A stretch of DNA of 39,991 bases from Deltaproteobacteria bacterium (lineage in GTDB: Bacteria; Desulfobacterota; Desulfarculia; Desulfarculales; Desulfarculaceae), in NCBI GenBank assembly GCA_020444205.1, contig JAHLLJ010000020.1, positions 1 through 39,991 on the forward strand. The letters are read 5' to 3'. The position numbers and the translations under genes were made by a program. Numbering within the stretch: position 1 is the stretch's first letter; each line of letters opens with the position of its first letter. Below, piece after piece: positions 10,317 through 34,087 of the stretch. A model generated the notes under the pieces. That model had not been told where the DNA came from and searched no databases. It saw only the letters and a program-made list of their open reading frames with translations.

Positions 10317-10754
10317 ATGCTCCCCAGCCTTAAACTTGGCCTTAGCTTTACCTTTGAATACAAGGTACCGCCGGAGCGCACCGTGCCCTTCCTGTTACCT
10401 GAGTCACCAGAGTTTCAACAAATGCCCCAGGTGCTGGCCACCGGCTACATGGTGGGGTTGTTCGAGTGGGCCTGCATCCAGGCCCTTAAGCCCCACCTGG
10501 ACTGGCCCCGTGAGCAGAGCGTGGGCACCCAGGTGCGCCTGAGCCACGTGGCGGCCACGCCGCCGGGGCTCACGGTAAGCATAAGCGGAGAGCTGATAGA
10601 AATTAAGGGACGCCGCCTGTTGTTCGCCATGCAAGGTCACGACGGAGTGGAGCTGATCTCTAAAGGCACCCACGGGCGCTACATAATCGACGCGGCGCGC
10701 TTTAATGAAAAAGCAGGGGCCAAGCAGGCCGCCGCCATGGGCAAGGCGCCTTAG
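10317..10754 (+). CDS. FlK-type acyl-CoA thioesterase (fluoroacetyl-CoA thioesterase family)
   Basis: A 145-residue hotdog-fold protein closely resembling fluoroacetyl-CoA thioesterase FlK of Streptomyces cattleya, as I recall that sequence. Shared stretches include PESPEF, ATGYMVGLFEWAC, AATPPGLTV and GRRLLF. The catalytic Thr-Glu-His set is present almost co-linearly as Thr42, Glu50 and His77. Phe33 is kept, but the FlK lid residue Phe36 is Met here, so the natural substrate may be another small acyl-CoA. It hydrolyses acyl-CoA to acid and CoA in the cytoplasm. It is divergent from a LysR regulator and overlaps the convergent rubrerythrin-like gene by 4 nt. Homology is strong, substrate uncertain. 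Confidence 0.85.
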   Translation: MLPSLKLGLSFTFEYKVPPERTVPFLLPESPEFQQMPQVLATGYMVGLFEWACIQALKPHLDWPREQSVGTQVRLSHVAATPPGLTVSISGELIEIKGRRLLFAMQGHDGVELISKGTHGRYIIDAARFNEKAGAKQAAAMGKAP

Positions 10755-11239
10755 GCTACCGGCTGAAACTTTTCATGCACCGCGCCGCACACAGGGCAGC
10801 GCTCCGGCGCACTGCCGGTGGCGATCCAGCCGCAGATCGAGCAAACCAGGTAATCTGCCGACCCGTCTTCGCCAAGGGCCTGGGCCAGATCGCCCTGGCG
10901 CTGGGCCACCTGGGCCGATTGGTCCAAAGCAGTACCCGCCACTCTTTGCCCTTGCCGGTCGGCTTCTGCCACCAGCCCGGCATAGCCTTGGAGTAGTCCG
11001 GGCAGCATCTCGACTTTGGTTTCCTCGAGGTTGGCCTCGGCGTCGCCCAGCTTACCCCGCATAAGCATGAGAAAGCGCCGGGTGTGCACCCGCAGGGAGG
11101 CGGCCAGGGCCTCATAAAATTCAGCCTCCTGGTCGCGCTGGCGGCTGCGGGCCTGCTGGGCGAACATCTCCAGCCTGGCCAGGGCCAAACTGGCCTGAAC
11201 AAAAGCTTGCTGCAACTGGTCTTGAGGGGCTTGGCTCAT
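10751..11239 (-). CDS. Rubrerythrin-like protein with rubredoxin-type C-terminus, di-iron ligands mostly missing
   Basis: A 162-residue protein with a helical N-terminal region (about 1-120) and a C-terminal rubredoxin-like knuckle pair, CSICG (133-137) and CPVCG (148-152), arranged as in rubrerythrin. In the helical part Glu24 and His52 fit rubrerythrin ligand positions, but the ExxEH, ENYE and ExxRH motifs cannot be found. For example AQRQGDL stands where ExxRH is expected. So the FeCys4 site is likely present while the di-iron peroxidase site is probably lost. I chose the ATG at 11239 (AAGGA upstream), 10 nt after the ThrRS editing-domain gene. Possible roles are electron transfer or metal binding. 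Confidence 0.75.
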   Translation of the reverse strand: MSQAPQDQLQQAFVQASLALARLEMFAQQARSRQRDQEAEFYEALAASLRVHTRRFLMLMRGKLGDAEANLEETKVEMLPGLLQGYAGLVAEADRQGQRVAGTALDQSAQVAQRQGDLAQALGEDGSADYLVCSICGWIATGSAPERCPVCGAVHEKFQPVA

Positions 11240-11249
11240 ACCGGTCCTT

Positions 11250-11660
11250 TCAAATCTCTTTGAACACCTTGGCCAGGGACTCCCCGGCCACGTGCATTTT
11301 CCATTCGTTGAGATAGCCAAAAGGCGTGGCGCTGACCTCGTAGCCGGTGTCGCTCAGGCGTTGGGCGGTGCGCCCGGCCATCTCCTGGGCCAGCTCTGGC
11401 GGGGCCTTGCTGGTTGAAAGATGGCCAAAGGAGTGCAGCACCACCCGCTTGGTGTTGAACTTGCCCGCCAGCCACTTGATGTTTTTAAGCATCTTGTTGA
11501 CCACTTTGGTCTCGCGGCCCTGGTCTTCGGCCTCGGCGTGGTAGAACACCACCACCGCATCGCTGGTTTGGTCGCTCTGGGTCGCCTCCGGGGCTTCCTC
11601 CAGGGATTTGGCAAAGGGCTTATGCCAAAAGCTGGGGGCATAGAACATGAGCAGCTTCAC
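11250..11660 (-). CDS. Free-standing archaeal-type threonyl-tRNA synthetase editing domain
   Basis: A 136-residue protein that aligns along its whole length with the N-terminal editing domain of archaeal ThrRS (a D-aminoacyl-tRNA deacylase fold). The opening MKLLMFYAPSFW, the HSFGHLS motif (77-83) with its conserved His80, and the ending ATPFGYLNEWKMH all match the archaeal pattern. In archaea this domain removes Ser from mischarged tRNA-Thr. No synthetase domains follow, so it would act in trans. A lysine I recall as catalytic in the Pyrococcus domain (in GYYKAF) appears as Asn118 here, so activity is not assured. The ATG overlaps the stop codon of the upstream hotdog gene. It could also act on another aminoacyl-tRNA or ester. 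Confidence 0.75.
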   Translation of the reverse strand: MKLLMFYAPSFWHKPFAKSLEEAPEATQSDQTSDAVVVFYHAEAEDQGRETKVVNKMLKNIKWLAGKFNTKRVVLHSFGHLSTSKAPPELAQEMAGRTAQRLSDTGYEVSATPFGYLNEWKMHVAGESLAKVFKEI

Positions 11661-12154
11661 TTTTTATTTCCGAGCCTGCTGCGTTTTTCCTGTTCCTTTT
11701 CCGCCAGGCGCATCTTGCGGCGGCTCATGGCCTCGTCGTTGCGCCGGCGCTCGTCAGGGGTTTCCAAGATCAAGCCCGGCACCGGGGCGGGTTGCTTGTT
11801 TTGGTCCAGAGCCACAAAAGTCAGATACGCGCTGGCCACATGCCTGGTCTGCCTCTTTTGGGGATTTTCCGCCTCCACCCGAACCCCGATCTCCATAGAG
11901 CTCTTGCCCACCAGGTTTAAGCCCGCCTTTAGAAACAACAGCTCTCCCACGTAGACCGGGTTGTGGAAATCCAGGCGGTCGATGCTGGCCGTAACCGCAT
12001 TGCACGCGGCATGGCGCAAGCCCACCACCCCGGCGGCGGAGTCTATGTTTTTCATGATGACACCACCGTGTACGTTGCCGGCGGGGTTGGCGTCCGCCGG
12101 TTGCATGACCACGGCCATTACCACGCTGGAGTCACTTACGCGTTTACTTTCCAT
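11657..12154 (-). CDS. Acyl-CoA thioesterase, hotdog fold (YciA/BFIT-like)
   Basis: A 165-residue hotdog thioesterase. The family signature is seen in ANPAGNVHGGVIMKNIDSAAG (active-site region, about 22-42), followed by RLDFHNPVYVGELLFLKA and the SMEIGVRVEAEN strand. The enzyme should hydrolyse acyl-CoA in the cytoplasm. The C-terminal 25 residues are highly charged and probably helical or disordered. It is first of three co-directional genes, its stop codon overlapping the ATG of the ThrRS editing-domain gene. AAGGA precedes its own ATG. It shares a 90-nt divergent control region with pyruvate kinase. Substrate chain length cannot be read. Confidence 0.88.
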   Translation of the reverse strand: MESKRVSDSSVVMAVVMQPADANPAGNVHGGVIMKNIDSAAGVVGLRHAACNAVTASIDRLDFHNPVYVGELLFLKAGLNLVGKSSMEIGVRVEAENPQKRQTRHVASAYLTFVALDQNKQPAPVPGLILETPDERRRNDEAMSRRKMRLAEKEQEKRSRLGNKK

Positions 12155-34011: not shown

Positions 34012-34087
34012 TCCCCGGTAGCTCAGTTGGCAGAGCAGGTGGCTGTTAACCACCGGGCCGTTGGTTCGAGTCCGACCCGGGGAGCCA
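34012..34087 (+). tRNA. tRNA-Asn (anticodon GTT)
   Basis: A 76-nt cloverleaf: acceptor stem TCCCCGG (34012-34018) with CCGGGGA (34077-34083), D arm 34021-34036, anticodon arm GGTGG-CTGTTAA-CCACC (34038-34054) with anticodon GTT (34045-34047), T arm GTTGG-TTCGAGT-CCGAC (34060-34076), discriminator G and an encoded CCA. It is followed by its own terminator. No integrase or repeated 3' end was seen, so there is no sign that it serves as an attachment site here. Confidence 0.97.

Follow-up and report, generated by a model that had tools for sequence, protein, structure and literature searches.

Trans-editing factors safeguard the genetic code. To our knowledge, the list of known ones (DTD, ATD, AlaX, the YbaK/ProXp group and archaeal ThrRS-ed) holds no entry for the protein family described here, which we term the K134 family. 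Among the closest described systems is the archaeal ThrRS editing domain, represented by that of Pyrococcus abyssi (PabNTD; PDB 1y2q, 2hl1, 4rrf and 4rr6), whose numbering (Pab) we use for residue positions. In such classical domains, catalysis requires the 2'-OH of the tRNA, Lys121 places the attacking water and is not a nucleophile, and the K121M change severely compromises three archaeal domains (PMC4491819). The side chains of Tyr120 and Glu134, the latter entering the active site from the other protomer, are dispensable, since a Y120A/E134A double mutant is still active and selective; serine is selected via the main-chain nitrogen at position 121, His83 is not catalytic, and Gly-tRNA-Gly is a second substrate (PMC4491819). 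Archaeal editing domains are also thought to need U73 in the tRNA (PMC11295145). Stand-alone tRNA-Thr-ED proteins near SepCysS in archaea, and a tRNA-Thr-ED fused to bacterial SepRS, are described in two further reports (PMC5424206, PMC8762117).

We analysed a 39,991-nucleotide stretch of a contig from a Desulfarculaceae bacterium (the window), in which a stand-alone member of this superfamily is encoded together with two close neighbours:

11250..11660, minus strand: stand-alone tRNA-Thr_ED-family protein (K134 family), 136 aa, GTG start (PF08915, AlphaFold model, tree placement, dN/dS)
11657..12154, minus strand: YciA-like hotdog acyl-CoA thioesterase, 165 aa (PF03061 4HBT, E 2e-15)
10751..11239, minus strand: 162-aa gene with a C-terminal rubrerythrin-type rubredoxin domain (PF21349, E 2.1e-9)

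The initial annotation had read the 136-aa protein as an archaeal ThrRS editing domain from end to end, and the profile search bore this out. PF08915 (tRNA-Thr_ED) was the sole Pfam-A family found on the protein (E 2.5e-42; 144.6 bits against a cut-off of 30.2), with residues 1-136 aligned to positions 1-137 of the 137-position profile. Among sequences in the PDB, phmmer recovered the ThrRS editing domains of P. abyssi, M. jannaschii and Aeropyrum (A. pernix), with a best E of 1.6e-11. An AlphaFold model built with 46 relatives as input reached a mean pLDDT of 94.7 and aligned with the P. abyssi domain in VIA-align at Z 23.3 (1.4-1.5 A over 136 residues, ~25% identity); Foldseek matched a ThrRS editing domain at E 2.1e-14 and TM 0.92. 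ThrRS editing domains ranked first in both comparisons, with DTD well behind at Z about 15-15.7. The predicted fold of the window protein is thus that of the solved ThrRS editing domains. A single copy of the gene was found in its own assembly, which spans 4.44 Mb in 342 contigs and is 82% complete. Its dN/dS of 0.15-0.34 against same-genus relatives shows that it is under purifying selection, and the pocket residues of the protein are invariant in 45 relatives.

Besides the whole-length fold, the window protein and the archaeal ThrRS domain have in common invariant equivalents of His83, Gly118, Glu46 and Asp49 and a PFG[YW] loop. The window protein differs in being free-standing, in falling into a separate clade and at several residue positions: Leu replaces Tyr120, Asn replaces Lys121, Lys replaces Glu134, Ser replaces Pro80, His replaces Tyr79 and Tyr stands at Trp/Tyr119, and there is an extra KN-KW motif. 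In the alignment, window residues Leu117, Asn118, Lys131 and His80 correspond to Pab Tyr120, Lys121, Glu134 and His83, and are encoded as follows:

11307..11312, minus strand: Leu117-Asn118 codons, at Pab Tyr120-Lys121, which serve the pocket and water positioning in classical domains (alignment; PMC4491819)
11268..11270, minus strand: Lys131 codon, at Pab Glu134, which reaches the other protomer's active site in PabNTD (alignment; PMC4491819)
11421..11423, minus strand: His80 codon, at Pab His83, invariant in 161 of 161 sequences from both groups

The exchange extends across the family. Sequences were labelled K134 or classical by K121 itself, and with that label the 119 K134-family sequences carry Asn (75), Leu (18), Ser (14), Cys (6), His (3), Met (2) or Tyr (1) at position 121, and lysine in 0 of 119. 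At position 134 the same 119 sequences have Lys (98) or Arg (21). The classical set comprised archaeal ThrRS, the SepRS and CysRS fusions of another genome of the phylum (G089) and six stand-alone archaeal domains, some of them beside SepCysS. Whether attached to ThrRS, SepRS or CysRS or standing alone, all 42 classical domains have Lys121, and their position 134 is Glu (39), Asp (1), Thr (1) or Val (1), never Lys or Arg. Further fixed differences in the K134 family are His at Tyr79, Ser at Pro80, Lys at Leu88 and Ser at Pro131, and the KN-KW helix motif is invariant within it. The replacement of Lys121, by Asn in the window protein, runs through the whole family and is accompanied at 134 by a switch from acid to base, a pattern that speaks against the site being decayed or inactive. 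Replacement of K121 together with a fixed basic residue at 134 suggests that the positive charge may have shifted across the pocket, from 121 to 134 of the other protomer. The earlier statement that Asn118 replaces a catalytic lysine stands as regards the replacement and needs correcting as regards the role, since Lys121 positions water and is not a nucleophile (PMC4491819). Given the severe effect of K121M on three archaeal domains (PMC4491819), loss of Lys121 could also mean altered chemistry or a non-hydrolytic role.

Starting from the observed family, fold, clade, residue exchange, co-occurrence and U73 pattern, we infer a dimer, its catalysis and its substrate by analogy with the archaeal domain. 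We think it fairly probable that the window gene encodes a homodimeric, trans-acting aminoacyl-tRNA deacylase that uses a relocated lysine to remove small mis-acylated residues from U73 tRNAs (Thr, Cys, Gly). Such a free-standing homodimer with the D-aminoacyl-tRNA-deacylase fold would accommodate a charged tRNA's CCA end across its two subunits, pick small amino acids mainly via main-chain contacts and hydrolyse the ester with a water that the tRNA 2'-OH activates. The invariant Lys/Arg134 would probably assume or re-tune the water-holding role of Lys121; the aligned positions point to Lys131 as the residue that may rescue its loss in the window protein. The task would be trans-editing of wrongly charged tRNA-Thr, tRNA-Cys and tRNA-Gly, with Ser, Ala, Gly or a non-protein analogue as the candidate residue. 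The K134 family offers a natural test of the DTD fold without Lys121, which is thought crucial in the ThrRS branch.

Tree reconstruction separated this family from the classical domains. In a tree of 118 rows the K134 family forms one side of a 100/100 branch, and in a tree of 92 rows with columns 119, 120, 121 and 134 masked, the 50 sampled K134 rows again lie on one side of a 100/100 branch, apart from the ThrRS-linked domains. Because the branch persists with the diagnostic columns masked, the split is independent of the K121 label. On this placement, the window protein represents a distinct paralogous family rather than an editing domain that became detached from ThrRS. The family is also widespread: a scan of a public collection with one genome per species returned at least 256 loci with a relative. 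Among the best 80 of these, the bacterial hosts are Desulfobacterota, many Nitrospirota, Chloroflexota, Bacteroidota, KSB1, Calditrichota, Aminicenantes and Poribacteria, and the archaeal hosts are Methanococcoides, Methanohalophilus, Methanosalsum, Borrarchaeum and Bathyarchaeota. PF08915 occurs in 8 of 8 sampled same-genus genomes (the window's own included); at class level the count is 12 of 63 genomes, and at phylum level 41 of 394. The description of the gene as a free-standing archaeal-type domain in a bacterium consequently holds for its free-standing state, while the lone archaeal domain gives way to a large separate family of bacteria and archaea. The open-licence literature that we searched contained no report on the bacterial family or on its residue exchange; some archaeal members may already figure among the proteins in PMC5424206 and PMC8762117. 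One editing-domain gene, in genome G308 (L119, C43:91486-91875), carries an in-frame TAA and is probably a decayed copy.

The gene neighbourhood bears on a different reading, that the protein is no tRNA deacylase at all and the domain has been repurposed for another acyl ester or thioester, perhaps linked to acyl-CoA via the thioesterase, or has become a non-catalytic tRNA binder. The upstream thioesterase gene and the editing-domain gene overlap by 4 nt (GTGA, 11657-11660), which hold the TGA stop of the former and the GTG start of the latter, confirming the tight coupling claimed at the outset. The rubredoxin-domain gene begins ~10 nt past the editing-domain stop and is the probable third gene of the operon. 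Both the 4-nt overlap and the adjoining rubredoxin-gene relatives recur in close relatives. An operon-conservation survey showed, however, that neither the thioesterase pairing nor the arrangement with the rubredoxin-domain gene is kept beyond the window's taxonomic family; in other lineages the neighbours include a universal stress protein, Nif3, an alpha/beta hydrolase, malate dehydrogenase, a methyltransferase and many others, and no neighbour was common across lineages among the loci compared. Because the pairing is so confined and neighbours differ elsewhere, the thioesterase coupling carries no general functional signal. A repurposed domain would fit the loss of Lys121, but the highly conserved pocket residues and the invariant basic residue at 134 weigh against it, and we regard it as unlikely. 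The thioesterase itself scores E 6e-12 and 45.6 bits against NF007970 (YciA), under the cut-off of 162. A gene for an FlK-like, fluoroacetyl-CoA-specific thioesterase (PF22636, E 3.9e-27) lies at 10317-10754 (+), convergent to the operon, such that two hotdog-type thioesterases (YciA-like and FlK-like) flank the editing-domain gene. The window also holds a tRNA-Asn (GTT) gene at 34012-34087 (+).

If the protein is a deacylase, one alternative would be hydrolysis of Ser-tRNA-Thr in trans, exactly as by the archaeal ThrRS domain, as a second line behind the N2 site of ThrRS. Fold and family are the same, tRNA-Thr has the U73 that archaeal domains are thought to need (PMC11295145), and with serine selected through the main chain and the Y120A/E134A mutant active (PMC4491819), side-chain changes need not alter specificity. 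In-trans action is also a likeness to crenarchaeal ThrRS-ed, a Ser-tRNA(Thr) hydrolase (NF011500; ApThrRS-2); ThrRS-ed, however, also has an anticodon-binding domain, whereas the window protein consists of nothing but the editing domain and reaches 38 bits on NF011500, whose cut-off is 362. Such an activity would nevertheless be redundant. The ThrRS of the window's own genome, split over two contigs, carries the bacterial N2 motifs HSTAH and CRGPH intact, in agreement with the initial annotation's point that the bacterial ThrRS editing domain is unrelated. N2 motifs were likewise read in the ThrRS of two relatives, and ThrRS was above the model cut-off in 25 of the 26 carriers checked; compensation for an editing-less ThrRS was rejected on these grounds, full-length ThrRS being present in those 25. 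Moreover, members of the Methanosarcinaceae carry both kinds, classical and K134, in one genome, and archaea that have the classical domain in ThrRS while also carrying the K134 family indicate a different job for the latter. K121 is, in addition, lost throughout the family. Taken with the points in its favour, these observations leave Ser-tRNA-Thr hydrolysis of the archaeal type as a rather doubtful alternative to a broader U73-tRNA deacylase.

DTD provides a second point of comparison. Both DTD (PF02580) and ATD resemble the window protein in fold (Z 13-16), but no PF02580 match to the window protein was obtained at E up to 1, and its sequence contains no Gly-Pro dipeptide. The Gly-Pro is needed for the cross-subunit Gly-cisPro motif of DTD. 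Because both marks are missing, the window protein is, on sequence, not a DTD. A second D-aminoacyl-tRNA or Gly-tRNA deacylase acting as DTD backup or replacement would accord with the common fold and with the cleavage of Gly-tRNA-Gly by classical domains (PMC4491819). Yet DTD accompanied the K134 gene in 40 of 42 carriers and was also present in 16 of 21 genomes without it, so that one does not stand in for the other. The idea that the protein makes up for an absent DTD was rejected on that count, and we consider the whole explanation quite improbable.

A U73-tRNA deacylase of the kind we favour would, rather, plausibly complement DTD, to judge by the properties of the related enzymes. On Gly-tRNA-Gly, E. 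coli DTD is ~100-fold less active when base 73 is the natural U than when it is A, and in tRNA-Thr across bacteria A73 is commoner than U73 (PMC6097841). We found U73 in the tRNA-Thr(CGT) of the window's own genome and, in a sister genome, in all three tRNA-Thr isoacceptors, tRNA-Cys and tRNA-Gly. In 64 genomes surveyed across the phylum, the pattern used for tRNA-Thr was matched with U73 alone and never with A73, with the gene present or absent. A correlation with tRNA-Thr U73 accordingly had no contrast to draw on: because U73 is universal in the sampled phylum with or without the gene, it permits a U73 substrate and does not support one. The question raised is how mischarged U73 tRNAs, poor substrates for bacterial DTD, are cleared. 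We tentatively put forward, as possible though less than probable, that the K134 proteins form a widespread, undescribed trans-editing family for these tRNAs, the blind spot of DTD, with the water-positioning lysine moved from 121 to 134 of the other protomer.

For archaeal stand-alone tRNA-Thr-ED, a role has been proposed in helping SepRS/SepCysS cysteine synthesis by clearing Ser-tRNA-Cys. Extending it to the window protein would draw on the stand-alone genes near SepCysS in archaea (PMC5424206, PMC8762117), on a Borrarchaeum K134 gene divergent from a SepCysS gene and on SepCysS in 4 of 4 archaeal K134 carriers tested. Bacteria contradict it: SepCysS was above the model cut-off in 0 of 46 bacterial K134 carriers tested, and a further five tested genomes of the genus, including two at 98-100% completeness, gave none (the window's own assembly is 82% complete). 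A SepCysS link in bacteria was rejected for this reason. In archaea, too, the SepCysS-adjacent stand-alone genes are classical in 4 of the 6 loci examined, one of these via a weak 29%-identity match. The SepCysS-linked stand-alone proteins and SepRS fusions belong to the same superfamily as the window protein, and the former are also stand-alone; unlike it, those examined keep Lys121, have no Lys or Arg at 134 and are placed among the classical domains. We therefore hold this role to be the least probable of those considered. Because the bacterial carriers tested nearly all have ThrRS and DTD and lack SepCysS, the K134 protein in bacteria replaces neither ThrRS cis-editing nor DTD and has no part in tRNA-dependent cysteine synthesis.

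Several loci met during these comparisons join editing domains to other tRNA-related genes. G089 encodes a classical editing domain (Y120, K121, T134) at the N terminus of a cysteinyl-tRNA synthetase (L115:5587-7545), with PF08915 at 1-136 and PF01406 at 182-477 of 652 aa; we met no description of an editing-domain-CysRS fusion in the literature examined. G089 also carries SepCysS (TIGR02539 above cut-off; L114:1341-2522), and this gene is followed by an editing domain with a continuation that is SepRS-like by eye (L114:2728-4000), in which Pfam recognised the editing domain alone and the remainder is N-masked and enters an unrelated reading frame. In Methanococcoides (L092 and L095), K134 members stand beside TusA-, ThiF/MoeB-, MoaD/ThiS- and threonine-synthase-like genes, named by eye, and a SepCysS gene lies ~10 kb off on the same contig.
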